Positions 1 to 49,712 of a stretch of 64,000 nt of DNA are shown piece by piece. The stretch spans positions 23,886,517 through 23,950,516 of the forward strand of contig OX419755.1 of NCBI GenBank assembly GCA_948567375.1, given 5' to 3'. Source of the stretch: Lunularia cruciata. Taxonomy: Eukaryota; Streptophyta; Marchantiopsida; Lunulariales; Lunulariaceae. The notes beneath the pieces were generated by a model that saw only the letters and a program-made list of their open reading frames with translations, searched no databases and was not told where the DNA came from. Both the position numbers and the translations under genes were made by a program. Position 1 is the stretch's first letter. Each line of letters begins with the position of its first letter.

Positions 1-789
1 CCCAGGATGTAGTTTGAGTCCATGAGATCTCAACCTCTCAAACACCTCCAACAACTGTCGCTCATGCTCCTCCACAGTTGTGCTATACACCAAAATGTCA
101 TCAATATAGCACCGAGCAAAATCCAGTCCAGCTAGGATCCTATCCATGACCCTCTGGAACTCAGCAGGAGCGTTCTTCAACCCAAATGGTAAGAACCTCC
201 ACTGATATAACACATCCTTGCCATGAGGATCAATAGCCCAAAATGCTGTCTTGGACTTATCTTCCTCCCTGATCGGCAACTAATGATATCCCGCTCGAAG
301 ATCCAAAGTACTGAAGACCTTTGCATGCCCAATCGCATCAAAAATCTCCTCCGGTGTAGGCATGGCATACCGATCAGCCCTGGTCTGTCGGTTGATAGGA
401 CGGTAATCTCCACACATCCGCCTATCTGTATAGTTGCCATGCATATCCTTCTTGGCTGGCATCACTGTCGCTGATGCATACTCTCCATGTGAAATCTCCA
501 CCAAACCAGCCTCAAAAAGGTCACTACTCCGGCTCTGAATCAATGTCCTCTCCATCTCACTATATCGATAAGGACGTCGGAAAACAGGTGTGTTGCTAGT
601 CAGCTCAATCCGTATACCAGGTCCCTTCAGAGCACCCAAATCCTTCATACTGAAGGCAAAACAACTCGTGTGACTCCTCAAGAACCTCCAAACCCTCCGT
701 CTTTCCTCTCCAGTAAGCTTGGGTCCAAGATCTGGCTCCCAAGTATCCTCTGTAACTGTAGTAGGAGTGGAAGACGTACTGACTGGCTG
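1..789 (-). pseudogene. Reverse transcriptase, N-terminal part (copy A)
   Basis: The frame that ends at the UAG (790-792) continues here as a gypsy reverse transcriptase. Recognisable stretches are CGDYRPIN, STLDLRAGYH, a PFGLKNAP-type block and the catalytic YIDD at 97-108. One in-frame TAG at 280-282 falls where copy B has CAG (AGYHQ), so it is a C-to-T nonsense change rather than a natural end. No frameshift is visible. The domain runs off the left edge, so RNase H and integrase of this copy are not in the window. A start codon is not expected: the protein would be made by reading through the UAG. Confidence 0.9.
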
Positions 790-792
790 CTA
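784..792 (-). promoter_or_regulatory. UAG-CAG-CCA stop, candidate programmed readthrough site (copy A)
   Basis: On the minus strand the methyltransferase-bearing frame ends in UAG followed by CAGCCA, and the same frame then continues into reverse transcriptase. The six bases after the stop fit the CARYYA context known from tobamovirus-type UAG readthrough. The identical nine bases occur in copy B (45770-45778), although B differs at many other places. Readthrough is an inference; the alternative is a shared CAG-to-TAG mutation inherited by both copies. Confidence 0.6.
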
Positions 793-3700
793 CACTGGGC
801 CCTTGGGAGCAATGGTGTCATGCTCCCGACCACTAGAGGTCCCAACCTCTGTGTGAAAAACTCCCTCCACTCTGGCTGCAAGCTCCATACGTCCTTTGGC
901 TGCATCCCATGTGGACCAAGGGTGTAATCCAAGTAGCCCACGCTCACCTGGATGGACTCCAAGTAGACCACTCTCCCTAGTAGCTATTGGATGTGTCCCA
1001 AGAATACCATGTCCACTCGGTCCATCGCCCCCAGCATGTGCCTGAATTGTCTCGATAGGCACAGGGCTCACAAGCGTCCGAGTGGTGATGCCTATCAAGC
1101 GCATCCTACGCTGCTCTGCCAAACCAAGGCTCACAATCCAGGTCAAACAGTTCAGGTCCATAGCCTGACCTAACACCTGACGCTTGGATGCCTCTGACAC
1201 TGCTGGAACAGCGGTAATACCGGTGCGAAAACCCATCGCCCGCTCTCTCTCATCAGCATTGGGCTCCACCAACTGCTGTAACTGTGAGTCCCAAACAAGT
1301 CCAGGTCCTCCCTCTCGAAAAGCATGAGAGCCTGGGAAACTCATGAGTGTGGGAAATGCAGCTCTAGGCTGTCCAACTAGGTTCACCACTGCCATAGGTG
1401 ACCTATCAGCCACTACCACTGTCTGAGACTGACGTCCAGCATCCAAGATATCATCAACAAGAATGTGATCTAGTCGCTGAATCCCATCATAACTACGCTG
1501 TAGAACCTCTCTGGGTAAAAGGTTCATCCACCAAAGACGAAGACGATGAGCCCGTGATCCCACTCTGGCTGCATCTAACAATACAGCAGGTCCCATCCAA
1601 GAATGGACCTGATGTGTACTCGCCACCACTCTAGTGCGAGAATCACCTATCAATGGAACGTTCTCCAAAAGGTAAGCTGGAGAAACAGACTGATGAACCT
1701 GGAGATGTCGTAGTATCCGTAACATCTCCCAAAACACACCAGAACGAGGATCCTGAAGACCCAAACCGCGGCCCACACGTGTATGTCCCTGACATGGCCA
1801 TCCAAAAATCACCAAGTGAATAGGCCCATGTCTCTCTAGGTCATGCGCCCCCAATAAGGAAATGTCTCTTGGTAAGGCCTTCTGGTAACCTCTGACTGCT
1901 GACATCGGTAATAACTCCGGATACCGATAGGCCAAGTGTGCCACATGATGTAGAGAGACTCGCCTAGTAGTCTTATCTCTCTCTACATACAAGTACCTCT
2001 GTACTCGGATACCCGCCTGTAACACCGCAGCTAGTCCGGTGCTGATCCCACCAAACAACTCTAATAGACATATCCCCTCTACTGGATACTGCCAAGCAAT
2101 GAGTGTGGTATCCAGAGGTGTCAAAGCAATCGCCTCTGGAGGCTCATCCTCACACTCATCCCCTGATGGTACGAAGGCTCCACTCCAAGCCTGCTGCACC
2201 AACTGATCTGCATGCTGCTGCAATGCCTCCTCTGAACTCCACAATGGAACATCCAAGGTGGATGGAACAATCCCACTCGTACTCCATAGCCGAGTGATCT
2301 CCTCTGGTACTGGAGTATCCTCTGCATGGGCGTTCCCCTCCAACAAGTCACCAGGCCAAGTAACTGCACCGCTGAAAGCCAAAACTGATGCTGCCATGGT
2401 CCCGGACTGTAGTGAGCCAAGACTGCCACTACTAAAGCGTACTGGTAGGCGACATACCCGTCCCTCACCAGACTGCCAACCAGGTCTATAAGAGGCTGTC
2501 TCCTCCCAATAGTCAATACTGAAACCCATAGGGTATAACACTGCTCCCCCAACTAGCACATCATAGGACTCAGCTATCGTCGCAATAGCCAGAGCTCTCA
2601 CCACCGAGCTATCAGTCGGATGACCAGGCTGAACCTGGACAACAAGCTCTCCACGTGTGATGTACTGTGTCGAACCACCACCAAGAGATGTTTGGATCTG
2701 AAATGGACACCTCTCCACATCGGTCTTCCGTAACTCCAGACCAACAACTGCATCCTTCCCCAACATAAGGGGCTGCGCACCAGAGTCTAACAAGACTCTC
2801 TGTGGTGTATAGACCTTCCCTGAAGGTCCTACCAAACGAAAGATCCCCTTCTGGTTATCCAATAAGACAACACCAGGTGTAAACCGCGCTCTCTCAAAGG
2901 CCGGTCTAGCTGGCAACTCCTCTAGTCTAGCCGCTGCTGCCTGCCATAAACCACTGGTCGCTGAACGGATCCCATGCTCCTCAACCAAGTCAGCTCCACT
3001 ACCAACCACCTCTGCTCTAGTAGTAGGAACTGCACCATCCCTACTCTCACACAACGTGGCAGCCAACCGGAACACTGGGGCTGGGTCAACTCCCAATGTA
3101 AACATGTCACTGGCTGAAAATAAAGGATGCCGCATAATCAGCTGAGCCGCTCCCAACATTATGCTAGACTCAGTCTGTGTAGTAGCAGGTGGCTGACTAG
3201 TAGGTACTCCATCATGTACTCCATCACCACCTACCACACCTACACTGGGACGTCTAGGAACCATGGATGTTGTCTGCAATGCCTCAGATAGCGTGAAAGA
3301 CTGGGGAAGTCTGACCTGTCTCCCAACCTCTCCTCTCTGTGGGTCCAACTCCACTGATGCTCCTCTAGGCTCTGGAGCACGTACTGCACTCCTAGTCACT
3401 GCTGCAGATGCATCCACCTGTGCTGCTCCGCACATGAAGTCCAAAGCATCTCTATCACCAACATATGAGGTGGAAGCCTCAGCACCCGAATCTGATCTCC
3501 TCTGAGCAATAGCCATACTAGCCAATCTCTGCTCCAACTGCTCAATCCAAGTAGCCATAGCTATGTCAAAAGTAAGGGCAGGTACTGCACCCCTACTAGG
3601 TGTAGATCCTCTACCACCACCTCTACCACCTCGTCCTCCATGAACTGGAGCTCCTCTACTACCTGCCATAGCAGCCCTACCACTCCGTAACTCCGGGTGT

Positions 3701-4146
3701 AGGTCAAAACACCGGTCACTAGTGTGACCAAATCTGTGGCAATGCTCACACTGCCTCTGTGCTGGCTGTGATGCACCAGAGGTATCAGGTCCGCTGCCCT
3801 GAGTACACTCTCTCCTATGGTGAGGTCCACCACAAGTCCAACAAGCAACACCACCACTCACTGGCTGCTGCTGACCCAAAAATGAGGGTAAGGGTCTAAC
3901 TCCACTAGGCCCTCCACTCGCTCCATAGGATATGGGCTGTCCACCCTGTCCTCGAAAACCAACTGGGCGTGGTGCACTCTGTTGCACTCTAGAAGAAGTC
4001 ACAACCGTGGATGAGGTCTCTCTACCAAATCCAGCTGTCACCACTCTTTCCTCCACCATGTTGAGCTCAATACGCTCAGCCAAACCAAAGACTACTGCCA
4101 AAGTGGGCGAAGTAGCCTGCAACAACGTAGCATCACGAACTCTACG
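790..4146 (-). CDS. Gag C-terminal part, zinc knuckles, protease and cytosine methyltransferase fusion (copy A)
   Basis: An open frame of about 1,118 codons follows the premature TGA at 4147-4149 in the same frame as gag, so the ancestral product was one Gag-PR-methyltransferase polyprotein. Numbering from the TTG at 4125: residues 1-50 finish the capsid-like region; 95-139 hold two CCHC knuckles; 150-180 are Gly/Arg-rich; about 425-545 form the aspartic protease with DSGA at 447-450; 684-1003 form the methyltransferase; the last ~110 residues include repeated GLLG/ILG-x-HP motifs. Residues 190-425 match nothing I know. The natural end is the UAG at 790-792. For a gypsy element the insertion of ~320 methyltransferase residues between protease and reverse transcriptase is highly unusual. 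With no other stop or frameshift in 3.3 kb, this copy looks recently active or conserved. Confidence 0.9.
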   Translation of the reverse strand, partial: RRVRDATLLQATSPTLAVVFGLAERIELNMVEERVVTAGFGRETSSTVVTSSRVQQSAPRPVGFRGQGGQPISYGASGGPSGVRPLPSFLGQQQPVSGGVACWTCGGPHHRRECTQGSGPDTSGASQPAQRQCEHCHRFGHTSDRCFDLHPELRSGRAAMAGSRGAPVHGGRGGRGGGRGSTPSRGAVPALTFDIAMATWIEQLEQRLASMAIAQRRSDSGAEASTSYVGDRDALDFMCGAAQVDASAAVTRSAVRAPEPRGASVELDPQRGEVGRQVRLPQSFTLSEALQTTSMVPRRPSVGVVGGDGVHDGVPTSQPPATTQTESSIMLGAAQLIMRHPLFSASDMFTLGVDPAPVFRLAATLCESRDGAVPTTRAEVVGSGADLVEEHGIRSATSGLWQAAAARLEELPARPAFERARFTPGVVLLDNQKGIFRLVGPSGKVYTPQRVLLDSGAQPLMLGKDAVVGLELRKTDVERCPFQIQTSLGGGSTQYITRGELVVQVQPGHPTDSSVVRALAIATIAESYDVLVGGAVLYPMGFSIDYWEETASYRPGWQSGEGRVCRLPVRFSSGSLGSLQSGTMAASVLAFSGAVTWPGDLLEGNAHAEDTPVPEEITRLWSTSGIVPSTLDVPLWSSEEALQQHADQLVQQAWSGAFVPSGDECEDEPPEAIALTPLDTTLIAWQYPVEGICLLELFGGISTGLAAVLQAGIRVQRYLYVERDKTTRRVSLHHVAHLAYRYPELLPMSAVRGYQKALPRDISLLGAHDLERHGPIHLVIFGWPCQGHTRVGRGLGLQDPRSGVFWEMLRILRHLQVHQSVSPAYLLENVPLIGDSRTRVVASTHQVHSWMGPAVLLDAARVGSRAHRLRLWWMNLLPREVLQRSYDGIQRLDHILVDDILDAGRQSQTVVVADRSPMAVVNLVGQPRAAFPTLMSFPGSHAFREGGPGLVWDSQLQQLVEPNADERERAMGFRTGITAVPAVSEASKRQVLGQAMDLNCLTWIVSLGLAEQRRMRLIGITTRTLVSPVPIETIQAHAGGDGPSGHGILGTHPIATRESGLLGVHPGERGLLGLHPWSTWDAAKGRMELAARVEGVFHTEVGTSSGREHDTIAPKGPV
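1117..2076 (-). other. C5 cytosine DNA methyltransferase domain (DNMT3-like), copy A
   Basis: The domain would transfer a methyl group from S-adenosylmethionine to C5 of cytosine in DNA. Seen motifs (numbering as in the host reading frame): motif I LLELFGGISTG (687-697, SAM binding), an acidic YLYVERD (711-717), motif IV GWPCQG with catalytic Cys778 (codon 1792-1794), motif VI ENVP (821-824), motif VIII-like RAHRLRLWW (858-866), motif IX-like RAAFPTLMSF (921-930), an ERERAMGF block (960-967), and motif X-like LGQAMDLN (985-992). The motifs run I to X, unlike plant DRM enzymes, where VI-X precede I-V. LDAARV..RAHR and the ERERAMGF-to-LGQ spacing recall DNMT3; PCQ (not PCN) is more like DNMT1/CMT or bacterial enzymes. 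All catalytic landmarks are present, so activity is plausible but untested. Copy B carries the same domain at 44480-45440. Confidence 0.9.
2491..2853 (-). other. Retropepsin-like aspartic protease domain (copy A)
   Basis: The active-site motif VLLDSGAQPLML lies at about 2755-2796 on the minus strand, with the catalytic Asp codon at 2785-2787. A YDVLVGGAVLYPMG stretch some 70 residues later fits the second conserved segment of gypsy retropepsins. It would cut the polyprotein, including release of the methyltransferase. The placement upstream of the methyltransferase and UAG means it would be made at Gag levels. Confidence 0.85.
3709..3843 (-). other. Two CCHC zinc knuckles of the nucleocapsid region (copy A)
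   Basis: The first knuckle reads CWTCGGPHHRREC (C-x2-C-x3-H-x4-C, one residue shorter than usual) and the second CEHCHRFGHTSDRC (canonical C-x2-C-x4-H-x4-C). A Gly/Arg-rich stretch follows at about 3586-3678. Both features would bind element RNA during packaging. The knuckle pair upstream of the protease confirms that this frame is gag-pol of a retroelement and not a host methyltransferase gene. Confidence 0.9.
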
Positions 4147-5073
4147 TCACAACTCCCTGTCCAGTATTCCATACCAAAACTGGACTGCCTGGGCCTCAGT
4201 AACTCCCTGAGTGAAACTGATCAGCCGCCTCATGCGAGTGTATGCCTCGCGTAGGCTCTCTCCAGCCTTCCGCTGGAACTCCTGCAAGCTCCTCAGCTTG
4301 TCAGTCCGCACTCCCTGGTAGTTTTGCCTCAAACATAGGAAGAACTCAACCATGGGGTTAAACCCCGGTACCACACCACCTCTTGCAGCGGTACCTCCAC
4401 TCGTAGTAGCACTATCTCCAGCTAGTGCACCTCCACTAGCTCCACCCACACTACTCGAGCTAGAACTCGTAGGTACAGCCGATCTACTCCTGGCCACCGA
4501 GCCTGAAGTGATGGAGACATAGTGAGGAGACCAATACTGTCTCCATAACTCAATCTCCTCCAAATGAGCTCTCTTGAACTCATGGTAGTCGTCCATCGGT
4601 AGACCCTCCAAGTGCTGAAACAACCCCTTCCATGCCATGAAGGGTGTGAACAAAGTCGGGTTCAGCATTTGCTGCAGATCACACCAACTATCAAACTCCT
4701 GGATGAAGTCATCCAACTCAATGGTACCCACTGTACCAGAGTAACGCCTAGGGCCTTTGGAGGCCCCATAAAACTCGTCCATGTCCCACAACAACGGTGC
4801 GGACACACCAAGTGCACTCTCAACTGAATCAGCTCCTGTGTCGAACTCCAACTCAGAGTCAATCTCCTCCCTCACTGGGACCTGAGATACAGGTTGATAC
4901 CGAGCACCACTCCAAGTAAACCCACTGCGTACTGTAGGGCTAACTCCTCTGGAATCTCCAAAGAACTCCGTCGTGACCACGTAACTGCAACAGCAAACCC
5001 GAACCACCAACTGCAACCGCAAGTCGCAACCGCAAGTCGCAACTGCAAGTACCCCACCAAGTGCCAACACCAA
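4147..5073 (-). pseudogene. Gag capsid region (copy A), ended by a premature TGA
   Basis: About 308 codons of capsid-type Gag, including an ELDDFIQEFDSW block, WKGLFQHLEGLP, and FQRKAGESLREAYTRMRRL, the last typical of retrotransposon Gag. The TGA at 4147-4149 stands where copy B has CGA, so it is a CpG C-to-T change, and the frame resumes immediately. The start is unsettled: a TAG precedes the TTG at 5073 in both copies, and the first in-frame ATG is only at 4780-4782, inside conserved-looking sequence. A Ser-rich low-complexity stretch (about residues 205-240) varies little between copies. Confidence 0.8.
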
Positions 5074-5400: not shown

Positions 5401-6766
5401 TGGCATTTGACATAAGAGTAGTTCGTATCTAAGTCCTAAGCTACCAGGATCACCAAGAATGGGATCAAACTGCCTCTCCTAGCCAAAGCTACATGTGTAT
5501 AGATAACAGTGGCACAATCACTATGACAACAAGTGAGGGTGGACCAGTTGGCTAGGGCACCAGTCTAGGAACAAGAGATCTAGGGGTCAAACCCTGTTGC
5601 GCACAATCTAGCAAGAAAGGTAGATTTTGCCAACCAATGACCAAGATCTACACTAAACTAGCTAGCCTCACGCCAGCAAGCTGGCTTGCTGGCCCTTCTA
5701 GGCCTTCGTAGCCTCTCATAGCCCACAGTCCTATGCCTCAAAACGCCGAAATTCAGCCAAATGAGGCCTTTCTTGTTGCCACTTCGAACCTCCTCCAAAA
5801 TTGGCAAAACTTCTCCAAATCTGCGAAACTCCTCCAAACTAGCGAAACTTCTCCAAATCTGGCCAAACAGCGAAACTCCTCCAATTCTGGCCCAAAAATC
5901 TGACGTAAATCTGACGTAAACCCTAAAGATGGATGTCCGCCAAATCCCCCGCTAACTTTCCACTCGAGCCAAATTGACAAAACAGGTTTTTCCAAATCAC
6001 AATTTCATGAGAAGAGCTTTCCAACTCCACCTTCAATTTCACTTTCTGAGCCCAACTCACAGCAAATTGGTCCTGCCTTCACTTCCTGAGCTCAAAATCA
6101 CAACACTGCTCAAAAATTGCTCCTTCTTTGCTCAAAATTTGGCCAGCGCTTCCGCACACCGTCCGCCTAACTGCCAAATTTGCATCAACTACACGAGCTT
6201 CTGCACACTAGGGAAACACAGAACCTGAATCCAGCTACCACGATCCACCGAGCTTGGAGATACCACCAACACTCAACGTTCCTGCACCCGATTTCCCCCT
6301 GACTTCACTTCTCTGATGTAATCAGATTGCTTAACAATTCAATTCAACTCAACTCAGATCAGTACTTGATCTGTCACTCTATAAACTGCCAACAATTGGG
6401 TACTGATTACAGTCAAGCCACACCCACTCAAGCATAGAGAATCCAGGTGACGCTCGCCGGCCTCTGTCCACCATAGCCAGGAACTCGAAGGCTCAACATC
6501 AGAGAAGTGAGCTCTCTGGAGTTCACTTCGAAACTATACCCCCTGGACTCGAGCTAGCCCTGAAACCCTAACGGTCCCGCTGACGGCACACTCGACGGTG
6601 CAAACGGTGCAAAGTGACGGTGGGCCCCGCCGTGAAGTCAGTACCCCAAACATGAAATCTAACCATCGGAAAGTAGTCCCTGAGAAACAACTAGAATAAC
6701 TCTAACTACCATCACTGGAACTCCAGTGTCCGAGCATCTAGATGCGGAACTACAAATGGCGTGACA
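5401..6766 (-). repeat. 5' LTR of copy A
   Basis: A 1,366-bp LTR beginning TGTCACGCCATTTG at 6766 and ending in CA at 5401, next to the primer-binding site. It aligns throughout with the 5' LTR of copy B (39987-41177) and with the partial 3' LTR at 49162-49610. CpGs such as those in the GACGGTGGGCCC region near 6620 are kept here but often lost in B, agreeing with A being younger. The 3' LTR of A lies outside the window. Confidence 0.85.
5537..5603 (+). other. Degenerate tRNA-like sequence, antisense inside the LTR
   Basis: On the strand opposite to the element, AGTTGGCTAGGGCACCAG resembles a tRNA D-arm/A-box and AGGGGTCAAACCCTG resembles a T-arm/B-box, at tRNA-like spacing. The acceptor stem does not pair well, so it is not a functional tRNA. 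It may be a captured tRNA-derived SINE head or an internal Pol III promoter relic. The matching segment in copy B is near 40975-41045. Confidence 0.4.
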
Positions 6767-6958
6767 TCCAAAATAGTGGTGCTCATCTTTTCTGCCTCCT
6801 CTAAAGTAAGGTCCACTCTATCTTAGCTATGACTAACTCTAGCTAATCATGACTAATGTAAAACCATCCTTTATCTTTATATAAATAATATCTCTCAAGT
6901 ACTTGTAATACAAAGCTAAATATCACAATACCACACACATGCACAAATGGATGTTACA
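6767..6958 (-). repeat. 3' LTR of element C, interrupted
   Basis: Begins TGTAACATCC at 6958 directly after a polypurine tract and matches 13567-13758 closely for its whole length. It stops at the copy A junction (6766/6767). Confidence 0.9.
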
Positions 6959-6970
6959 TTTACCCCCGGA
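6959..6970 (-). promoter_or_regulatory. Polypurine tract of element C
   Basis: TCCGGGGGTAAA on the minus strand abuts the 3' LTR start, the standard plus-strand primer position. Confidence 0.75.
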
Positions 6971-7108
6971 CTTAGTTTTACTTTGTCCTCAAAGTGAAGG
7001 TCTCTCTACTTCTATGATACATTTTCAACTTATCATGGTTAATCCTATCAAAGTGTCTTCCTCCCAACTTCTTGAGATCATAGGTGTAATTGCCCCTCAC
7101 CTTCTCCA

Positions 7109-8092
7109 CTATGAAAGGTCCAAAGTACTTAGGCAAAAACTTTTTTGCACTATCTTGAATCGAATAGAATCAAACAACATTACCCAATCACCTTCTTTGA
7201 AAGGCTCCACTTTCTTCTTGCCTTGCCTCTTATCATAGCTCTCCTTTTGTTTCCTTTGGGCTTGCTCCACTTGAACCATAACAACTGCTCTTGCCTCTTC
7301 CAACTCCATGAGTTATTCCTTCCTTGACTTCTCTGCATCATCTCCTTGTGCTTTCTTCAATCTCATATGAATGCTTTGGAAGGTAGGAAGATCAAAATGA
7401 ATAGGTAGGGTAGACTAAATACCATATACCAATTGAAATGGAGAATATCTGGTGGAAGTCTTCATGGTTGTCCTATACTCCCACAAAACTGCATGAATCC
7501 TCTAGTCTCAATTATGTTTAGCCCCCTCCATTTCTGCATCTTTGGCCAACATCATGCACAAGGTCTGATTGGTTCTCTCTGCCAAGCCATTAGAATTTGG
7601 CTTATAGGATGTATTTACTCTATGTGTGATAGAGAAATGTCGTAGCATGGCTGTAGTAATGCTTGTTGTAAACTCTCCTCCTCTATCAAAAACCAACTCC
7701 AAAGGGCATCCAAATCTAGTGATAATGCATTCATAAAGAAATCTACCAACTTCATCTTCATTCTTGTCCCTCAATGATCTAGCCTCAACCCACTTGGTAA
7801 GGTAATCAATAACTACCACAATGTACTGATTGTTCCTTGGGGTTCTATTGAGAGGACCTACAAAATCAATTCATCACTTCTCAAAAGGTCATAGCAATGG
7901 AATTGATCTAAGTGGTGGAGTGGATGTAGAATTTCTAGCAAAAGCTTGACAAACATGAAAAGTTTTGCAATAATCAAGACAATCCTTGAAAATCCCTCTG
8001 CAATAGTAACCTGCATCTAGAATCTTGAAAGCAGTCACCTTTCCTGCAAAGTGTCCTCCACACACTAAACCTTCATGAAACTCCTTTATAAG
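7109..8092 (-). pseudogene. Integrase of element C
   Basis: The catalytic core is at 7508-7819: VVIDYLTKWVEA (first Asp), FDRGGEF (second Asp; DRGTEF is usual) and NGLAERTN (Glu). The upstream part (7860-8090) shows an HHCC-like zinc-binding region with a CKTFHVCQ-type end in broken frame. The C-terminal part (7109-7309) holds QRKQKESYDKRQ and FKEGDWVML, typical of the gypsy integrase tail; no chromodomain is visible. Stops separate the parts but the frame is that of the RT. Confidence 0.85.
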
Positions 8093-8842
8093 TTAGATAG
8101 ACTCTTCCTTACCCACTACTCTTTGAAGTAGACCATCTGCTCCTTGGTGAAAAAGAATATCCTCCACCATTGTGTAAGGTCTAGATCTTGCTGCAAGGGC
8201 CTTCCTCTCCCTAGCATGCATCCCTTCTGGATAGTTACCTCTTGTCACAAAATCCACAATCTCCTTATATTCCATTGGAACCTCTTGAGTGACTGAGATT
8301 GTCATGAGCTCCTCATCCATTGGCTCATCTCCATCATGATCATAGGCTCTAGATAACAAATCAGCATTTGCATGTTTCTTTCTTGGCCTATCCTCAATGG
8401 TGTAGTCATACTCAGACAAGAGTATCATCCACCTTGCTAGTCTCCCTTCAACATTAGGCTTGTTGAAGATGTACTTCAAAGCCTTGTGATCCATGAAAAT
8501 GGTGGCTTTCCCTCCAATCAAGTAGTGTCTAAACTTCTTGAGACCAAAGATCACTGCCAACCCTTCTCTCTCCGTGACAAAGTAGTTCTTCTCTGCTGAA
8601 ACCATCTGCCTACTAGCATAAGCTATTGGATGATCATGCCAATCTTGGTCTAATTGACTAAGAGTGCATCCCATAGCTACATTAGAAGCATCAGTGTAGA
8701 GGATGAAAGGCTTACTCCAATCAAGTTTAGCAAGAATTGGAGCTACAACAAGGGATTGCTTGAGCTCCTCAAAAGCTTTGAGAGCCTCCTTGTCCTCCAA
8801 AATCACCATGTAATCTACACCCTTCTTCATGTAGATGGTCAA
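8093..8842 (-). pseudogene. RNase H and connection domain of element C
   Basis: Shows PFILYTDASNVAMG (first catalytic Asp), AEKNYFVTEREGLAV (Glu), TIFMDHKALKYI (Asp) and ADLLSRAYD, the full motif set of gypsy RNase H. One stop at the left edge of the RT part separates it from 8864-10084 in the same frame. The end of the segment enters the integrase zinc-binding region. Confidence 0.88.
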
Positions 8843-8863
8843 TGCATAAGCCTTGTTGGAAAA

Positions 8864-10084: not shown

Positions 10085-10195
10085 CTATGGCTTCCCAAGA
10101 AGTAAGTCATAGCTTGAATCCTTCAAGACTTGGAAAGTCATGAGATTTTGAACTCCCATAATTGAAACTACCACTTTATCCATCACCCCTATTGG

Positions 10196-10462
10196 TCAAA
10201 CTTGTTGCTTGTTTGCCATGCTCACCACAAATGTTGAAGGTCTTGAGGGTATCATACCCAACTTCTTCATCAACCTTTTTGACATGGCATTCAATGCTGA
10301 TCCTCCATCAACAAGTGCATCCTTGATGTTGTGACCATTCACTCTCACATCAATCTTGGAGGTATATTCACAAGCCTCCCATGGTGCTTGCTTGGCATCC
10401 ATCACCCCCATTGATACTGGAGCTTTTGCCTTCTTCTTCCTCTTGCTCCTTGTAGAACTCAA
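10196..10462 (-). pseudogene. Aspartic protease of element C
   Basis: Contains ALVDGGSALNAMS, the DGGSALN form of retropepsin active site seen in many plant gypsy elements, after a Lys/Arg-rich stretch (SKRKKKAK). It is in the pol frame. Stops between 10085 and 10195 separate it from RT. Confidence 0.78.
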
Positions 10463-11810: not shown

Positions 11811-12031
11811 CTTAACTTCTCATTATCTTTCTTTCTCTCAATATTCTTTTCTCTCACTTTATAAATAATAGAGTATGTACATGACTAACACCATTTGAGA
11901 GTAATCCACCCTAGGGAACACAAAAGGTTTAGGTTACTCTAATATTTCTATAGCAACATCAAATCCTAGAGTGGATATTAATCAAACCCTCATGGATAGT
12001 TTATCCATAAGTTGAAAGATTATCTCCATCA

Positions 12032-13047: not shown

Positions 13048-13064
13048 TCCCGGCAATGGAACCA
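13048..13064 (-). promoter_or_regulatory. Primer-binding site of element C
   Basis: TGGTTCCATTGCCGGGA starts four bases after the LTR end and is close in form to the TGGCGCCGTTGCCGGGGA class of plant gypsy primer-binding sites. Confidence 0.7.
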
Positions 13065-13068
13065 AAAA

Positions 13069-37040: not shown

Positions 37041-37075
37041 ATATATTGGATAAACAATATGATTTGTGATGTTGT

Positions 37076-37632: not shown

Positions 37633-37650
37633 AACCAATCTATTTCTGTA

Positions 37651-39986: not shown

Positions 39987-41177
39987 TGTCACGCCATTTG
40001 TAGTGCTGCGTCTAGATGCTTAAACATTGGAGTTCTAGTGATAGTAGTTAGAGTTATTTCAACAATTTCTCACAGACTACTTTCCGACGGTCAGATTTTG
40101 TGTTTGGGGTACTGACTCCATGGTGAGGCCCACCGTCACTTTGCACTGTTCACACTGTCAAGTGTGCCGTCAGTGGGACCATTAGGGTTTTAGTGCTAGC
40201 TCAAGTCTAGGGGGTATAGTTTTGAAGTGAGCTCCAAAGAGCTCACTTTTCTGATGTTGAGCCTTCGAGTTCTTGGCTATGGTGGACAGAGGCCGGCGAG
40301 CGTCACCTAGATTTTCTATGCTTGAGTGGGTGTGGCTTGATTGTAATCAGTGCCCAGTTGTTGGCAGTTTATAGAGTGACAGATCAAGTATTGATTTGAG
40401 TTGAGCTGAGTTGAGAGTGGTAAGCAATCTGATTACATTAGAGAAGTGAAGTCAGGGGGAAATCGGGTGCAAGAACTTTGAGTGTTGGTGGTATCTCTAA
40501 GCTCGGTGGATTTTTGGTAGCTTGATTCAAGTTCAATGTTTCCCTAGTGTGCAAAAGCTCATTCAATTGATGCAGATTTGGCAGTTAGGCGGATGGTGTG
40601 CGGAAGTGCTGGCCAAATTTTGAGCAAAGAAGGAGCAAATTTTGAGTAGTGGTTGTGATTTTGAGCTCAAGAGGTGAAGGCATGACCAATTTGCTATGAG
40701 TTGGGCTCAAAAAGTCAAATTGAAGGTGGAGTTGGGAAGCTCTTCTCATGAATTTGTAATTTGGAAAAACCCATGTTGTCAATTTGGCTCGAGTGGAAAG
40801 TTAGCAGGGGATTTGGCGTTTAGAGGCTTTGAGGCATAGGGCTGTGAGCTATGAGAGGCTACGAAGGTCTAGAAGGGCCAGAAGGGCCAACAAGCCAGCT
40901 TGCTAGCATGAGGCTAGCTAGTTTAGAGTAAATCTTGGTCATTGGTTGGCAAAATCTGCCTTTTTGGCTAGATTGTGCGCAATAGGGTTTGACACCTAGA
41001 CCTCTTGTTCCTAGATTGGTGCCCTAGCCAATTGGTCCATCCTCACTTGTTGTCCTAATGACTATACCACTGTTATCTATACACATGTAGCTTTGGCTAG
41101 GAGAAGCAGTTTGATCCCATTCTTGGTGATCATGGTAGCTTAGGACTTAGATACGAACTTCTCTTATGTCAAATGCA
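39987..41177 (+). repeat. 5' LTR of copy B
   Basis: Begins TGTCACGCCATTTG and ends in CA two bases before the primer-binding site; 1,191 bp against 1,366 bp in copy A. A TATA-like TTTATAGAG occurs near 40370. The antisense tRNA-like segment is also present. Confidence 0.88.
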
Positions 41178-41179
41178 AA

Positions 41180-41505: not shown

Positions 41506-42600
41506 TTGGTGTTGGCACGTGGTGGTGTTGGCACTTGGTGGGGCACTTGCGGTTGTGACTTGCGGTTGCAGTTGGTGGTTTGGGTTTGCTGTTGTGGTTA
41601 CTTTGTCACGACGGAGTTCTTTGGAGATTCCAAAGGAGTTAGCCCTGCAGTACGTAGTGGGTTTACTCGGAGTGGTGCTCGGTATTAACTTGTATCTCAG
41701 GTCCCAGTGAGAGAGGAGATTGACTCTGAGTTGGAGTTCGACACAAGAGCTGATTTAGTTGAGAGTGCACTTGGTGTGTCCGCACCGTTGTTGTGGGACA
41801 TGGACGAGATTTATGGGGCCTCCAAAGACTCTAGGCGTAACTTTGGTACAGTGGGTACCATTGAGTTGGATGACTTCATCTAGGAGTTTGATAGTTGGTG
41901 TGATCTACAATAGATGCGGAACCCAACTCTGTTCACACCCTTCATGGCATGGAAGGGGTTGTTTTAGCATTTGGAGGGTCCGCCGATAGACGACTACCAT
42001 GAGTTCAAGAGAGCTCATTTGGAGGAGATTGAGTTATGGAGACAATATTGGTCTCCACACTATGTATCTATCACTTCAAGCTCGGTGGCCAGGAGTAGAT
42101 TGGCTGTACCTACGAGTTCTAGCTCGAGTAGTGTGGGTGGAGCTAGTAGAGGTGCACTAGCTAGAGATAGTGCTACTACGAGTGGAGGTACCGTTGCAGG
42201 AGGTGGTGTGGTATTGGGGTTTAACCCTATGATGGAGTTCTTCTTGTGTTTGAGGCAGAACTACCAGGAAGTGCAGACTGACAAGTTGAGGGGCTTGCAG
42301 GAGTTCCAGCGGAAGGCTGGAGAGAGCCTATGCGAGGCATACACTCGCATGAGGCGGCTGACCAGTTTCACTCAGGGAGTTACTGAGGCCCAGGTAATCT
42401 AGTTTTGGTATGGGATATTGGACATGGAGTTACGACGTAGAGTTTGTGATGCTACATTGTTACAGGCTACTTTGCCTACTTTGGCAATGGTCTTTGGTTT
42501 GGCTGAGCATATTGAGCTCAACATGGTGGAGGAGAGAGTGGTGACATCTAGATTTGGTAGGGAGACCTCATCCACGGCTGTGACTTCTTCTAGAGTGCAG
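41506..42600 (+). pseudogene. Gag capsid region (copy B)
   Basis: Collinear with copy A gag. In-frame stops are at 41686-41688 (TAA where A has CAA), 41881-41883, 41965-41967 and 42400-42402 (TAG where A has CAG), and 41911-41913 (TAG where A has CAA). At the place of the TGA in copy A this copy keeps CGA, which shows that the ancestor read straight from gag into the knuckle and protease region. As in A, no ATG is seen near the start. Confidence 0.85.
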
Positions 42601-44428
42601 TAGAGTGTAGTAGAGTGCACCACACCCAGTTGGTTTTTGAGGATAGGGTGGACAGCCCAGATCCTATAGAGCGAGTGGAGGGCCTAGTGGAGTTAGACCC
42701 TTACCTTCATTTTTGGGTCAGCAACAGCTAGTGAGTGGTGGTGTTGCTTGTTGGACTTGTGGTGGACCTCACCATTGGAGAGAGTGTACTCACGGCAGTG
42801 GACGTGATACCTTGGGTGCATCATAGCCAGCACAGAGGCAGTGTGAGCATTGCCACAGATTTGGTCACACTAGTGACCAGTGTTTTGACCTACACCCGAA
42901 GTTACGGAGTGGTAGGGTTGCTATGGCAGGTAGTAGAGGAGCTTCAGTTCATGGAGGATGAGGTGGTAGAGGATCTACACCTAGTAGGCTTGCAATACCT
43001 GCCCTTACTTTTGACACAACTATGGCTACTCGGATTGAGCAGTTGGAGTAGAGATTGGCTAGTATGGCTATTGCTTAGAGGAGATCAAATTCGGGTGTTG
43101 AGGCTTCAACCTCATATGCTAGTGATAGAGATGCTTTGGACTTCATGTGCGGAGCAGTATAGGTAGATGCATCTGCAACAATGACTAGGAGTGCAATACG
43201 TGCTCCAGAGCCTAGAGGAGCATCAGTGGAGTTGGATCCACAGAGAGGAGAAGTTGGGAGACAGGTTGAACTTCCCTAGTCTTTCGCATTATCTGAGGCA
43301 TTACAGACAACATCCATGGTTCCTAGACGTCTCAGTGTAGGTGTGGCAGGTGGTGATGGAGTACACGATAGACTACCTGCTAGTCAGCTACTTGCTACTA
43401 CACAGACTGAGTCTAGCATGATGTTGGGGGCAGCTCAACTGATTATGCGGCGTCCTTTGTTTTCGGCCAGTGATATGTTTACATTGGGAGTTGTCCAGCC
43501 CCAATATTTTGGTTGGCTGCCATGTTGTATGAGAGTAGGGATGGTGCAGTTTCTACTACTAGAGCAGAGGTGGTTGGTAGTAGAGCTGACTTGGTTGAGG
43601 AGCATGGGATCCGTTCAGCGACCAATGGTTTATGGCAGGCAGCAGCGGCTAGACTGGAGGAGTTGCCAGCTAGACCGGCCTTTAAGAGAGCATGGTTCAC
43701 ACCTGGTGTTGTCCTATTGGATAACGAGAGGGGATTTTTTTTGGTGGGACCTTCAAGGAAGGTCTATACACCATAGAGAGTCTTGTTAGACTCTGGTGCG
43801 CAGCCCCTTATGTTGGGGAAGGTTGCAGTTACGAAAGATTGATGTGGAGAGGTGTCCATTTCAGATCCAAACATCTCTAGGTGGTGGTTTGACACAATAT
43901 ATCACACGTGGAGAGCTTGTTGTCCAGGTTCAGCCTGGTCATCCGACTAATAGCTTTGTGTTGAGAGCTCAGGCTATTGCGACAATAGCTAAGGCATATG
44001 ATGTGCTAGTTGGGGGAGGAGTGTTATACCCCATGGGTTTCAGCATTGACTATTGGGAGGAGATAGCCTCTTATAGACTTGGTTGGCAGTCTGGTGAGGG
44101 ACAGGTATGTCGCCTACCAATATGCTTCAGTAGTGGCAGTCTTGGCTTACTACAGTCCGGGACCATGGCATCATCAATTTTAGCTTTAAGTGGTGCAGTT
44201 ACTTGGCTTGGTGACTTGTTGGAGGGGAACGCCCATGCAGAGGATACTCCAGTACCAGAGGAGATAACTCGGCTTTGGAGTACAAGTGGGATTGTTCCAT
44301 CTACCTTGGATGTTCCATTGTGGAGTTCAGAGGAGGCATTGCAGTAGCATGCAGATCAGTTGGTGCAGTAGGCTTGGAGTGGAGCCTTCGTAACATAAGG
44401 AGATGAGTGTGAGGATGAGCCTCCAGAG
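42601..44428 (+). pseudogene. Nucleocapsid and protease region (copy B)
   Basis: Collinear with 2400-4040 of copy A in broken frames. The zinc-knuckle DNA is recognisable near 42745-42890. The protease site VLLDSGAQPLML is at about 43780-43815. Stops at 42601, 43049, 43076, 43160, 43277, 43774, 44345 and 44369 are all TAG where copy A has CAG. A frameshift between 42601 and 43049 removes the knuckles from frame. Confidence 0.82.
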
Positions 44429-45772
44429 GTGATTGCTTTGACATCTCTAGATACCACACTCATTGCTTGGCAGTATCCAATAGAGGAGATATGCCTATTG
44501 GAATTGTTTGGTGGGATCAGCACCGGACTAGCTGCGGTGTTACAGGCGGGTATACGAGTACAAAGGTACTTGTATGTAGAGAGAGATGAGATTGCTAGGC
44601 AAGTCTCTCTACATCATGTGGCACACTTGGCCTATCGGTATCCAGAGTTATTATCGGTGTCAACAATCAGAGGTTACCAGAAGGCCCTACCATGAGACAT
44701 TTCCTTACTAGGGGTGCATGACCTAGAGAGACATGGGCCTATTCACTTGGTGATTTCTAGATGGCCATGTTAGGGACATACACGTGCTAGTAGAGGATTA
44801 GGTCTTTAGGATCCTTGTTTTGGTGTGTTTTGGGAGATGTTACGGATACTACGACATCTCCAGGTTCATCAGTTTGTTTCTCCAGCTTACCTTTTGGAGA
44901 ACATACCTTTGATGGGTGATTCTTGCACTAGAGTGGTGGCGAGTACACATCATATCCATTCTTGGATGGGACCTGCTGTATTGTTAGATGCAGCCAGAGT
45001 GGGATCACGGGCTCGTTGTCTTTGTCTTTGGTGGACAAACCTCTTATCCAGAGAGGTTCTACAATGCGCTTATGATGGGATTTAGTGACTTGACCACATC
45101 CTTGTTGATGATATCTTGGATGTTGGGCGTCAGTCTCAGACAGTGGTAGTGGCTGATAGGTCACCTATGGCAGTGGTGAACCTAGTTGGATAGCCTAGAG
45201 CTGCATTTCCCACACTCATGAGTTTCCCAGGCTCTCATGCTTTTCAAGAGGGAGGACTTGGACTTGTTTGGGACTCACAGTTACAGCAGTTGGTGGAGCC
45301 CAACGCTGATGAGAGAGAGAGGGCAATGGGTTTTTGCACCGGTATTACCGCTGTTCTAGTAGTGTTTGAGGCATCCAAGTGTCAGGTGTTAGGTCAGGCT
45401 ATGTACCTGAATTGTTTGACCTGGATTTTGAGCCTTGGCTTGGCTGAGCAGCGTAGGATGCGCTTGATAGGCATCACCACTCGGACACTTGTGAGCTCTG
45501 TGCCTATTAAGACAATTTAGGCACATGTTGGGGGCGATGGACCGAGTGGACATGGTATTCTTGGGACACATCCAATGGCTACTAGGAAGAGTGGTCTACT
45601 TGGAGTTCATCTAGGTGAGCATGGGCTACTTGGATTACACCCTTGGTCCACATGGGATGCAGCTAGAGGATGTGTGGAGCTTGCAGCTAGAGTGGAGGGA
45701 GTTTTTCACACAGAGGTTGGGACCTCTAGTGGTCGGGAGCATGACACCATTGCTCCCAAGGGCCTAGTGTAG
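44429..45772 (+). pseudogene. Cytosine DNA methyltransferase region (copy B)
   Basis: Same domain as in copy A, in one uninterrupted frame apart from stops. Motif I LLELFGGISTG and motif VI LENIP are kept. The PCQ of motif IV has become PC-stop (TAG at 44771-44773), just after the catalytic Cys. Other stops, at 44807, 45083, 45191 and 45518, are also CAG to TAG relative to A. No indel is needed to align A and B over this 1.3 kb. The frame ends at the conserved UAG at 45770-45772. Confidence 0.9.
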
Positions 45773-45778
45773 CAGCCA
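45770..45778 (+). promoter_or_regulatory. UAG-CAG-CCA stop, candidate programmed readthrough site (copy B)
   Basis: Identical to 784-792 of copy A and at the same place, between the methyltransferase and RT parts. The frame continues beyond it into RT. Unlike the other TAGs of this copy, it is also TAG in copy A. Confidence 0.6.
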
Positions 45779-46790
45779 GTCAGTACGTCTTCCACTCCTA
45801 CTACAGGTACAGAGGATACTTGGGAGCCAGATCTTGGACCCAAGCTTACTGGAGAGGAAAGACAGAAGGTTTGGAGGTTCTTAAGGAGTCACACGAGTTG
45901 TTTTGCCTTCAATATGAAGGATTTGGGTGCTCTAAAGGGACATAGTATACGGATTGAGCTGACTAGCAACACACCAGTTTTCTGACTTCCTTATCGATAT
46001 AGTGATATGGAGAGGATATTGATTCAAAACCGGAGTAGTGACCTTTTTGAGGCTGGTTTGGTGGAGATTTCACATGGAGAGTATGCATCAGCGACAGTGA
46101 TGCCAGCCAAGAAAGATATGCATGGCAACTATATAGATAGGCAGATGTGTGGAGATTACCATCCTATCAACCAACAAACCAAGGCTGATCGGTAAGCCAT
46201 GCCTACACCAGAGGAGATTTTTGATGCGATTGGGCATGCAAAGATCTTCAGTACTTTGGATCTTCAAGCGGGATATCATCAGTTGCCGATCAGAGAGGAG
46301 GATAAGTCCAAGACAACATTTTAGGCTATTGATCCTCACGGCAAGGATGTGTTATATCAGTGGAGGTTCTTACCATTTGGGCTGAAGAACGCTCTTGTTG
46401 AGTTCCAGAGGGTCATGGATAGGATCCTAGTTGGATTGGATTTTGCTTAGTGTTATATTGATGACATTTTGGTCTATAGCACTACTGTGGAAGAGCATGA
46501 AAGACAATTGTTGGAGGTGTTTGAGAGGTTGAGATCTCATGGACTCAAATTACATACATGGAAGTGTAGGTTCTTCCACAAGCAGGTTGAGTATTTGGGT
46601 CACACTATCTACCCCGGAGGACTTGGTGTTCAGTGGACCAAGGTGGAGGCTATTGCACGTATTCCTTGGCCTACGGATGTGAGCAGAGAGCGAGCATTCC
46701 TTGGGTTGGCAAATTCTATCGCTGTTATGTTAGAGGATTTAGTGCAATTGCCAAGGCCTTGACAAAGCTGACCAAGCTTACAGAGGAGTG
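45773..46790 (+). pseudogene. Reverse transcriptase (copy B)
   Basis: Gypsy RT blocks in order: MPAKKDMHGNY, CGDYHPIN, FSTLDLQAGYHQLPI, RFLPFGLKN, CYIDDILVYS (catalytic YIDD near 46454-46465), YLGHTIYPGGLGV. Stops include 46193-46195, 46321-46323 (TGG to TAG) and 46448-46450. One frameshift near 46715 falls in the AFLGLAN block. Much of RT is free of indels. Confidence 0.92.
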
Positions 46791-47262
46791 GTGTTGGGGA
46801 GATGAGCAAGAGAGAGATTTTGTAGAGCTCAAGGAGAGGTTGACATGTGCTCCTATTTTGCGGAGACTGATCAGAGGATGACCATTTCAGGTTCATACTG
46901 ATTGAAGTATGTTGGGGCTTGGAGCGGTGCTCACCCAACATGATGATGAGGATAAGGAGTTTGTGGTGGCCTATGCTAGTTGCTCCAACAATTCAGCAGA
47001 GGCAAAGTATAGTTCATATGAGGGAGAGTGCTTGGTAGCAGTTTGGGCAGTAGCACATTTTCAATGTTACCTATTTGGTAACCCCTTCACTCTCATCACT
47101 GATCATCAGCCACTGAAGTGGTTGATGGAGTCCGACAAGCTTTCAAGGAAGCTTGCACAATGGGCTCTGATTTTACAAGAGTATGATTTCACAGTTGTTC
47201 ACAGACCTAGAGTAGTGAACTGTGATGCAGATGGGTTGAGTAGAAACCCATGTCCCAGCTAG
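46791..47262 (+). pseudogene. RNase H (copy B)
   Basis: FQVHTD (first Asp), SSYEGECLVAVWAVAHF (Glu), FTLITDHQPLKWLM (Asp), and VNCDADGLSRNPCPS. The first segment has a stop directly after the HTD motif. The 47262 end is a further stop before the integrase. Confidence 0.92.
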
Positions 47263-48600
47263 CAGGATCAGACCAGAGCATGTTAGCATGGTGAGACAGA
47301 TGAGGAGATGGTGCCAGGTTGGCATGCATCGGCCTTTCTGTGTATATTTGTAGAGGCTTTGGTGGTATCTCTCTCAGTGCATACAAGAGGAGTTATTGAG
47401 GTCACAAATCCAAAGAGTGAAGATATTGGTACAGTTCAGCAAGACATTCATGATGATGTCTTAGTGATGGACTATCTTTGCACTGGTGTTGTGGGTGGCA
47501 CAATTAGGGCCAAGGAGAGAGGCCGTGTTCTTTAGCAAGCCAAACGGTTTAGATTGGAGGGTAGACACCTTTTGCGTGTATGGGAGGATGGTAGAGTGCG
47601 AGTAGTACCACTTCCAATATAGAGACCACAGTTGGTCCGTCATGCTCATGAGGAGCTAGGACATTTTGGAGTAAAGCGTACATATAGCTTACTCCATGGT
47701 CATTATTGGTGGCACGGTATGCAGACCAAGGTACAGCAGTTGGTTGCCAGATGTGTGGTTTGTGACTGAGTTAGAGCATCATTCAATGCTCCTACACCAT
47801 AGTTACACCCATTACCTATCATGAGATTGGGTTACCGTTGGAGTTTGGACTTTGCCGGACTTTTACCACATACTATGAGACATCATCAGTATGTTTTGGT
47901 GATGGTGGAGCACTTCTCCAAGTGGATTGAGTTGGTGGCACTTCTTGACAAGTCTAGTGAAGGGACAGCTTACTCGTTTCTGGATTGAGTTCTTAGTCAT
48001 TTTGGTGCACTAGCTGAGGTTTTGACTGATTAGGGTACAAAGTTCTTGGGGGAGTTTCAGGTCTTCTTTGACAAGGCTTTGATTGATCATCGTACTACAT
48101 CCCGAGATCACCTTGAGGCAGATGGCTTAGCAGAGAGAGTGGTTCAGACGGTGAAGAGAGGATTGCAAAAGTATGGTTTGCAGAGAGGCCACTTGGGAGA
48201 TTGGGATCTCCAATTACCTTGGTTGGCCATGGGCTATTGGTTCAGCCGGCAAGCCTCCTTAGCATCCTTCTCTCCATACTTTCTACTCTATGGACAAGAT
48301 CTAGATTTACCTACAACCATTTGTCGAGATGCTACTGTAGTTTTGGACTTGGATGACCCCGATGTATGGATGAGCGCATGTTCTTAGCGAGCAGAGATCT
48401 TTCAAAAAATGATGCCAATGCCCTTTGAGAACTTGGTGATTGCTTAGCATAGAGATACTTTACACTATGCTACCATTCAAGGAGGAGGTTATAGACCCTC
48501 GATCCGTCAATTTCATCCAAGCCACTATGTATATTTACAACAAACAGCACCGATCACACTTGATGTTTCTATAGGCCGCACTATCTTGAGAGTGCACAAG
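47263..48600 (+). pseudogene. Integrase (copy B)
   Basis: An HHCC zinc-binding region (VRHAHEELGHFGVKRTYSLL, then CVVCD) lies near 47637-47770. The catalytic core shows WSLDFAG (Asp, near 47838), EVLTD (Asp, near 48017) and EADGLAERVVQTVKRGL (Glu, near 48115). Downstream come YRPSIRQFHPSHYVYLQQ and LRVHKVLPSGVLVLEGRDG, the GPY/F-like tail. Several stops but one frame. It is directly followed by a PHD finger rather than a chromodomain. Confidence 0.9.
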
Positions 48601-48744
48601 GTTTTGCCATCTGGAGTCCTTGTGTTAGAAGGACGTGATGGTGTTGTTTGGAAGGATCATGTGTGCAATTGTGCGACATGCCACCTCCCAAACATTGATG
48701 GTACTATGGATCCAAGCTTGGCACTTGTACATGCAGGCTTGAGG

Positions 48745-48885
48745 TGTATGTTATGTGGCTCTTTTGGTGGAGCTGCTATTATGTTAGTGTGTGATAGTTG
48801 TTCGAGAGGATGGCATATGGCATGTATGACTCCTCCTCTCACGGTGGTTCCTCAGGGATAGTGGTTATGTCCTAGATGTACTTGA
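48745..48885 (+). pseudogene. C-terminal PHD finger of the integrase polyprotein (copy B)
   Basis: All eight zinc ligands of a C4HC3 PHD finger are visible: CMLC, CDSC, HMAC and, after a TPPL..VPQG segment and one TAG (48859-48861), WLCPRC. The natural polyprotein stop is TGA at 48883-48885. PHD fingers commonly read histone H3 tails, so a role in steering integration to particular chromatin is likely by analogy with chromodomain integrases. The TAG lies where PHD fingers have G-x-W and may be another decayed CAG. Copy A cannot be compared because it leaves the window before this point. Confidence 0.88.
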
Positions 48886-49042
48886 CCTATAGCTAGTTCA
48901 TTCTTTATATGGTATAGATTGCAGATAGGCGACTAACGATGGGGCTCCATAGCACTCGGCCTCCTGATCTTTGCCCATTAAAGGGTATACCATATACTTA
49001 GAGTAGATGGCTATCTGGAGTTAGAGGGGCCTAACTGCCAGC

Positions 49043-49053
49043 TAGGGGGGTGA
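49043..49053 (+). promoter_or_regulatory. Probable polypurine tract (copy B)
   Basis: TAGGGGGGTGA lies about 160 bp after the polyprotein stop. Oddly, the next bases are the 102-bp segment at 49054 and not the LTR start at 49162. Confidence 0.55.
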
Positions 49054-49155
49054 TTGTGGCACTCTAGAGTCTATGTATGACTTATGTGTGAGTTGTGCTT
49101 CTATAGTGTATGATGTTGACAGCAATGTATGTTGTGTAGCGATGTATATACGCAC
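49054..49155 (+). repeat. 102-bp direct repeat flanking the 3' LTR fragment (first copy)
   Basis: Starts TTGTGGCACTCTAGAGTC and ends GTATATACGCAC. It recurs at 49611-49712 with about two transitions, and the 3' LTR fragment lies between the copies. It is absent from the outer side of the 5' LTRs of A and B. Confidence 0.85.
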
Positions 49156-49161
49156 GACATC

Positions 49162-49610
49162 TGTCACGCCATTTGTAGTGCCGCATCTAGATGCTTGGAC
49201 ATTGGAGTTCTAGTGATAGTAGTTAGAGTTATTTCAGTAGTTTCTTAGAGACCACTTTTTGATGGTCAGATTTTGTGTTTGGGGTACTGACTTCACGGTG
49301 GGGCCCACCGTCACTTTGCACCATTTGCACTGTTGAGTGTGCTATCAGCAAGACCATTAGGGTTTCAATGCTAACTTGAGTCCAGGAGGTATAGTTTTGA
49401 AGTGAGCTCCAGAGAGCTCACTTCTTTGATGTTGAGCCTTTGAGTTCCTGGCTATGGTGGATAGAGGCCGGCAAGCATCACTTGGATTCTCTATGCTTGA
49501 GTGGGTGTGGCTTGACTGTAATCAGTGCCCAGTTGTTGGCAGTTTATAGAGTGACAGATCAAGTACTGATTTGAGTTGAGTTGAGTTGAGAGTGGTAAGC
49601 AATCTGATTA
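49162..49610 (+). repeat. 3' LTR of copy B, truncated
   Basis: Matches the first ~450 bp of the 5' LTR from TGTCACGCC to CAATCTGATTA, then stops; the remaining ~740 bp are missing and the second 102-bp repeat follows. Confidence 0.88.
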
Positions 49611-49712
49611 TTGTGGCACTTTAGAGTCTATGTATGACTTATGTGTGAGTTGTGCTTCTATAGTGTATGATGTTGACAGCAATGTATGTTGTGTAGCGAT
49701 GTATATATGCAC
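49611..49712 (+). repeat. 102-bp direct repeat flanking the 3' LTR fragment (second copy)
   Basis: Second copy of 49054-49155. It directly adjoins the broken LTR end on the left and hAT sequence on the right. Confidence 0.85.

Follow-up and report, generated by a model that had tools for sequence, protein, structure and literature searches.

The window, 64,000 nucleotides of the Lunularia cruciata contig OX419755.1 (GCA_948567375.1; positions 23,886,517 to 23,950,516), holds two related retrotransposon copies, A and B (Table 1), assigned to Ty3/gypsy by the order protease (PR), reverse transcriptase (RT), RNase H and integrase (IN), a DDE integrase and terminal repeats. Copy A extends from its terminal repeat at 6766 down to the window start, which truncates it. 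The original prediction placed Gag, protease and a cytosine methyltransferase (MTase) in one frame at 790–5073; that frame is real and lies on the minus strand (translation of the plus strand from 790 meets many stops), but an in-frame stop splits off the capsid part. The remainder of ORF1 comprises 1118 open codons and includes two zinc knuckles (3805–3843, with variant spacing, and 3709–3750). Identification of the putative Gag and protease rests on motifs together with similarity to the Marchantia protein P0002 (68% identity for gag at 4120–4782 and 61% for the protease). Retrotrans_gag matches the capsid ORF at E 0.0086, below the Pfam cut-off, and Pfam detects a protease in L019, a related element described below, and none in the window copy. 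Neither Rfam (gathering scores) nor tRNA scanning returned a match in the window.

Table 1. Features of the two element copies in the window
Feature	Position	Strand	Remark
Copy A reverse transcriptase	1..684	-	truncated by window edge; in-frame stop 280-282; 63% to L019 RT
Copy A ORF1/ORF2 stop TAG CAG CCA	784..792	-	same frame; type I readthrough context
Copy A rest of ORF1: zinc knuckles, protease, methyltransferase, tail	790..4146	-	UAG end 790-792
Copy A DNMT3-class cytosine methyltransferase domain (predicted)	1105..2124	-	uninterrupted
Copy A aspartic protease (putative)	2434..2901	-	DSGA 2773-2787; 61% identity to Marchantia P0002
Copy A gag capsid ORF (putative)	4147..5073	-	closes with in-frame stop 4147-4149; relative P0002 has no stop there
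Copy A presumed primer-binding site	6305..6319	-	complement to 6496..6510
Copy A 5' terminal repeat (beta)	6319..6766	-	starts TGTCACGCC; 89-90% identity to both copy B terminal repeats
Copy A possible self-primer stretch within 5' repeat	6496..6510	-	perfect 15-nt complement of repeat end and adjoining bases
Copy B 5' terminal repeat (beta)	39987..40435	+	
Copy B gag capsid, zinc-knuckle region and protease	41800..44134	+	broken frame
Copy B methyltransferase	44438..45457	+	6 stops
Copy B TAG CAG CCA at ORF1/ORF2 junction	45770..45778	+	
Copy B reverse transcriptase and RNase H	45878..47250	+	broken
Copy B integrase (zinc finger, core, C-terminal part)	47575..48729	+	58-68% to L019 ORF2
Copy B PHD finger behind integrase	48736..48879	+	one internal stop; PF00628 E 1.8e-6
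Copy B conserved non-coding block behind ORF2	48927..48973	+	common to L019 6750-6798
Copy B repeat alpha	49053..49155	+	directly behind G-run (polypurine-like)
Copy B 3' terminal repeat beta'	49162..49610	+	
Copy B repeat alpha'	49610..49712	+	98% to alpha

Several comparisons support the assignment of the copy A domain as a DNMT3-class cytosine-5 methyltransferase of a gypsy element. Stretches that we take to be motifs I (2035–2067), IV (GWPCQG, 1786–1803), VI (ENV, 1654–1668), VIII (AHRLR, 1537–1551), IX-like (1228–1251) and X (LGQAMD, 1150–1173) follow one another within the ORF, in agreement with the complete-looking enzyme first proposed, and this order is un-rearranged, unlike that of DRM. 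The C5 class was likewise borne out by profile search, in which PF00145 scored 27.8 against a cut-off of 22 and was the sole Pfam family at E 0.01 or better in ORF 790–4146. Among C5 methyltransferases of known structure, DNMT3A/B is the best match, ahead of DRM2, HhaI and DNMT2, and structure comparison aligns the predicted model of the domain (22–346) to 630–908 of a DNMT3 chain. The closest relatives are thus DNA enzymes, with the tRNA enzyme DNMT2 far lower (E 2.4e-6 vs 2.9e-23), which argues against a domain that binds and methylates, or chaperones, the element RNA instead of DNA. Such a target would accord with the pairing of MTase and zinc knuckles in one ORF on the Gag side, and RNA methylation has been raised for LINE enzymes (PMC5890265); we consider it quite unlikely. 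A captured enzyme devoid of activity, retained as a structural or nucleic-acid-binding domain, would fit the absence of the motif IV proline from 21 of 84 relatives (those of 187 MTase-matching rows that cover at least 290 of 339 positions). The window copy, however, has the full GWPCQ, and Cys, Glu, Asn and both Arg are kept in 79–84 of the 84, which leaves this reading very unlikely.

The family also shows signs of selection. Comparison of copy A with copy B gives a dN/dS of 0.43 (0.27–0.69) for the methyltransferase, 0.42 for the gag capsid, 0.48 for the protease and 0.27 for RT, values well below 1 despite the later decay of both copies; the zinc-knuckle part (0.63, 0.39–0.99) and the tail (0.78, 0.26–3.64) are higher. 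Relative to P0002, the methyltransferase is the best-kept of the four ORF1 parts compared at 72% identity; the protease follows at 59%, the zinc-knuckle region at 50% and the tail at 26%. A chance ORF was ruled out by the agreement of Pfam, PDB, fold and family evidence. A bacterial or phage gene was likewise rejected: the profile matched 18 loci in viral contigs, all weakly (26–47% over short stretches), and a pattern-limited scan of prokaryote genomes gave a single locus, L019, on a contig labelled cyanobacterial. At least 50 matches in a viral structure library comprised phage and large DNA virus C5 methyltransferases together with other named and unnamed proteins. L019 is a nearly whole gypsy element with a PHD finger and is taken as eukaryotic contamination of that contig; its ORF2 found no relative when searched against viral contigs.

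Copy B (39987–49712, plus strand) is 89–92% identical to copy A over the aligned stretches and, as predicted at the outset, has an identical domain order, although its methyltransferase stretch is interrupted, unlike that of copy A. Beyond RT it continues through RNase H, integrase, PHD finger and 3' repeats, with many stops and frame breaks. The conserved non-coding block of about 48 bases shared with L019 has a score of 49, compared with 26 for the best of 300 shuffles; L019 gave no Rfam match, and the block shows no marked RNA fold. The repeats of copy B are ordered beta-coding-alpha-beta-alpha. Alpha and alpha' differ at 2 of 103 sites and beta and beta' at 48 of 449, and alpha' may therefore be younger than the copy B insertion. 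One could speculate, from this one copy, that the order would arise from a two-repeat circle opened at the alpha/beta border; L019 has no direct repeat of at least 60 bases and hence gives no view of such an order. No clear target-site duplication flanks the old copy B, and copy A is incomplete at the window edge. The 15-nt complement linking the presumed primer-binding site of copy A to its own 5' repeat exceeds the longest found in 200 shuffles (12), whereas the longest complements in copy B (6 nt in the 5' repeat, 10 nt in the 3' repeat) lie within the shuffled range. A complement of this sort is known from Tf1-type self-priming. CpG observed/expected is 0.47 in copy A, 0.33 in copy B, 0.25 in the whole window and 0.09–0.30 in four other window blocks; the lesser CpG depletion of the element than of its surroundings fits youth and is uninformative on self-methylation.

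The downstream half of the element is best seen in L019, whose ORF2 of 1047 open codons contains RT, RNase H, integrase (Integrase_H2C2 and rve in Pfam) and PHD. No tyrosine recombinase was found in this ORF beside the rve core, and in Pfam scans (E 0.01 or better) neither it nor the end of copy B shows a chromodomain, the place behind the integrase being taken by a PHD finger in both. The nearest solved relatives of this finger include those of CHD4, Cph2, PHF12 and UHRF1 among other PHD fingers, several of which are readers of the unmodified H3 tail. As read from sequence, the order Gag-CCHC-PR-MTase-UAG-RT-RNaseH-IN-PHD is common to the window copies and L019.

The stop between MTase and RT has a distinctive context. 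It reads TAG CAG CCA in copies A and B and TAG CAA TCA in L019, and in all three the RT ORF continues in the same frame beyond it; all fit the type I readthrough context, UAG CAR YYA followed by an open frame. Tobamoviruses have this sequence as their type I signal (PMC3542737); readthrough in planta reaches 32% for TMV and 11% for BNYVV (PMC2754532), and an in-frame stop between ORFs is known in retroelements such as SIRE1 (PMC2194720). The context, absent from the original prediction, bears directly on production of the MTase. TAGCARYYA occurs 3 times on both strands of the window, two of these being the element junctions, compared with 5.1 expected from shuffling; L019 has 2 occurrences, one at the junction, with 0.26 expected. 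L019 has a strong RNA fold around the stop (z −3.5), and copy A an unremarkable one (z −0.5). ORF1 protein ends resemble one another inside close groups: all nine proteins of the L019 subclade of the 83-row tree described below end in ALSAT plus one residue, and those of the sister rows P0024, P0032 and P0034 differ (some of the 66 ends considered may be contig ends).

An ordinary ORF1 end at 790–792, with RT made by reinitiation, from a subgenomic RNA or through splicing, would be in line with the lack of any readthrough product seen and with the Marchantia gene models P0007 and P0010, which fuse MTase and RT and omit the stop region, possibly as annotation artefacts. However, the same frame and UAG-CAR-YYA recur in two lineages whose ORF1 tails before the stop are only 20% identical (window versus L019), so that the junction motif stands out from poorly conserved surroundings, and at equal base frequencies CARYYA has a chance of 1/512 per six bases. 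We therefore regard an ordinary stop as unlikely and favor a leaky one. Lying on the Gag side of such a UAG, the methyltransferase would, we infer, be made and packaged in Gag rather than Pol amounts.

The methyltransferase belongs to a family and is not unique to the window copies, relatives from three protein searches (50, 230 and 45 overlapping matches) having ruled out a one-off insertion. All 50 matches of one search fit the methyltransferase profile, a sample of the family biased by a query that is mostly MTase, and 17 of them are from Marchantia polymorpha. The matches listed also name the liverworts Marchantia paleacea, Riccia sorocarpa and Calypogeia fissa, the peat mosses Sphagnum fallax, S. 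troendelagicum and S. tenellum, and the alga Closterium sp. NIES-53; the domains of Sphagnum fallax and Closterium are incomplete. Among the matches listed, which include 120 of the 230 and come from a search restricted by a word filter, no vascular plant is named; nor do those listed name K. nitens or include a recognizable host DNMT3 of a plant. The nearest bryophyte relatives reach 72–74% identity, compared with 51% to L019. A tree of 37 hand-picked rows puts the window copy outside a supported group of 26 (95/93), which includes the copies from Calypogeia, M. polymorpha and Sphagnum.

The Gag-PR-MTase-RT order anticipated for related copies is shared by L019, but other relatives are arranged differently. 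P0171, P0172 and P0174 have PR-MTase-RT-RNaseH-IN in one ORF (with a zinc knuckle in P0172 and P0174 and a PHD in P0171), P0176, P0180 and P0183 have RT-RNaseH-MTase-IN-PHD, some with a G-patch, and P0186 has RT-RNaseH-MTase-PHD-IN. The two positions of the domain separate along one branch of an MTase tree of 39 known-order rows (SH-aLRT 92; 11 hand-picked near-copies omitted from 50) and likewise in a 25-row RT tree (90/80). In the 83-row tree, which combines 82 rows of at least 300 positions with a DNMT3A outgroup on a long branch, all 17 RT-MT rows fall inside one 24-row set without an MT-RT row (SH-aLRT 87); the order of the remaining 7 rows of the set is unknown, RT-less rows being labelled by a length rule that left 32 rows 'unknown'. 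The simplest reading, from splits that are not strongly supported, would be one gain and one move of a domain inherited with the element; two captures from near-identical sources could also produce the pattern.

That retrotransposons can carry methyltransferases is, as the original prediction recognized, already established by KnitGypsy-Dnmt3 of Klebsormidium nitens and the Symbiodinium elements (PMC5890265), and was restated in 2025 (PMC12344493). KnitGypsy-Dnmt3 is the closer parallel, an LTR gypsy element whose coding region includes an un-rearranged DNMT3-type domain under purifying selection and whose DIRS-like repeat order A-coding-B-A-B matches that of copy B, a single copy (PMC5890265); the likeness rests on the description of the element rather than on comparison with K. 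nitens sequences. Its MTase is described in the Pol polyprotein ORF, whereas here it lies in the Gag-PR ORF before the UAG, and the main text of that description contains neither PHD nor read-through as words; its available text names no bryophyte copies (PMC5890265). SymbioDIRS-Dnmt3 and SymbioLINE-Dnmt are likewise retrotransposons with a cytosine methyltransferase but use tyrosine recombinase or LINE machinery in place of a DDE integrase (rve); the former is of the DNMT3 class, is active in yeast and occurs in two domain orders, interpreted as separate gains (PMC5890265). Animal DNMT3A and DNMT3B have the catalytic fold and motifs in common with the element domain, yet Pfam detects no PWWP, ADD or other chromatin-directing domain in ORF1, and the PHD is in the other ORF. 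Soybean SIRE1 and murine leukaemia virus also split two same-frame ORFs by a read-through stop, which in SIRE1 precedes an env-like ORF and here separates Gag-PR-MTase from RT (PMC2194720). Chromoviruses, some of them self-priming, place a chromatin-reading module behind the integrase, as does this element with its PHD (PMC6317226). A literature search on bryophyte cases, KnitGypsy and PHD-bearing gypsy elements, mostly at title and abstract level and with few subscription journals, returned no account of this family, and the available text of PMC6453930, PMC10952607 and PMC9289625 contains nothing on it. What is new here is the bryophyte hosts, the place in the polyprotein before a leaky-looking stop and a testable mechanism of supply; the principle itself is published.

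We propose that the copies represent a bryophyte, and probably green algal, Ty3/gypsy family in which a DNMT3-class methyltransferase is fixed in the Gag-protease precursor, the algal membership being probable from the Closterium and metagenome members. Most ribosomes would halt at the UAG and yield Gag-PR-MTase in Gag amounts, with RT-RNaseH-IN-PHD added by the minority that pass UAG-CAR-YYA. Inside the particle the methyltransferase would be freed by the protease; it would travel with the RNA and mark the new cDNA at CG, and perhaps at further sites, before integration or during it, and the element copy would thus enter the genome already methylated. The PHD finger on the integrase would direct integration to chromatin of a given histone H3 state. 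The element might gain by passing as host DNA, by shielding its cDNA from cytosine attack or by doing the host less harm. With this whole mechanism included, we see the proposal as about evenly balanced between right and wrong.

The enzyme could instead have as its chief target the host genome, or foreign, viral or rival-element DNA, from which the element would profit indirectly. Synthesis at Gag level would release much enzyme, effects of retrotransposon methyltransferases on the host methylome have been considered (PMC5890265), and a role against DNA viruses has been speculated upon (PMC6338049). In K. nitens, though, which has such elements, the methylome closely resembles that of land plants (PMC5890265), and the missing chromatin-directing domain in ORF1 also weighs against host action, which we hold to be unlikely. 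Self-marking of the cDNA remains our preferred reading. In its fullest form, which is tentative and on balance doubtful, DNMT3 would be a particle component supplied in many copies each by the leaky UAG and, paired with the histone-reading PHD, would give the self-marking element a writer and a reader of its own. Such a system would be ancient in the green lineage, with one gain and one move, and would live on as a mobile DNMT3 source in algae, liverworts and peat mosses, perhaps including the sole DNMT3-class enzymes of Marchantia.

Cytosine methylation normally silences transposons, and an element that carries a methylating enzyme is therefore a paradox. The role of the element-borne enzyme was left unclear by those who described it in 2018 (PMC5890265). 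The UAG context turns this question into a specific prediction of where and how much methyltransferase is made, and the liverwort relatives bring it into Marchantia, a genetic model in which enzyme, stop codon and methylome can be addressed. The inventory of M. polymorpha methyltransferases lists five (MET, two CMT and two DRM) and no DNMT3 (PMC5784723); if the fullest form of the reading above is true, the element copies may be the only DNMT3-class enzymes there.

The 5' end of the methyltransferase-bearing gypsy element at the window start (copy A) adjoins one of the 192-bp repeats (6766-6957 and 13566-13757, 95% alike) that bound a second gypsy-type element, which suggests that the former landed inside the latter. 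The RT ORF of this presumed target (8864-10084) is 31% identical to the RT of L019, a contig with a related gypsy element. Several degraded stretches elsewhere have a copia-like look, and nested retrotransposons seem to make up a large share of the window.

Further retrotransposon-like sequences in the window
Feature	Position	Basis
Second gypsy-type element	6766-13757	RT ORF and flanking repeats
Degraded copia-like stretch	37070-37884	By eye, ORF list
Degraded copia-like stretch	50506-52528	By eye, ORF list
Degraded copia-like stretch	60570-63729	By eye, ORF list

L019 (CADCWO010000201.1, 1-8215) carries a nearly whole methyltransferase-bearing gypsy element, PHD finger included; its database label is Synechococcales cyanobacterium, and the contig is probably eukaryotic contamination in a public metagenome assembly. 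A non-coding block 3' of ORF2 is common to L019 (6750-6798) and copy B of the window (48927-48973), conserved in elements with methyltransferases that share 51% identity; scanning L019 against Rfam returned no match.

Many relatives, including P0043 and P0045, read GWECQ rather than GWPCQ in methyltransferase motif IV, with Glu at the Pro site in 18 of the 84 relatives covering at least 290 of 339 methyltransferase positions. GWECQ is unusual among cytosine-5 methyltransferases.

Another relative, P0176 (EukProt GHRQ01002908), is ordered RT-RNaseH-methyltransferase-integrase-PHD. Its record name resembles that of a transcriptome assembly. If the record is indeed one, an element of this other layout would be transcribed.
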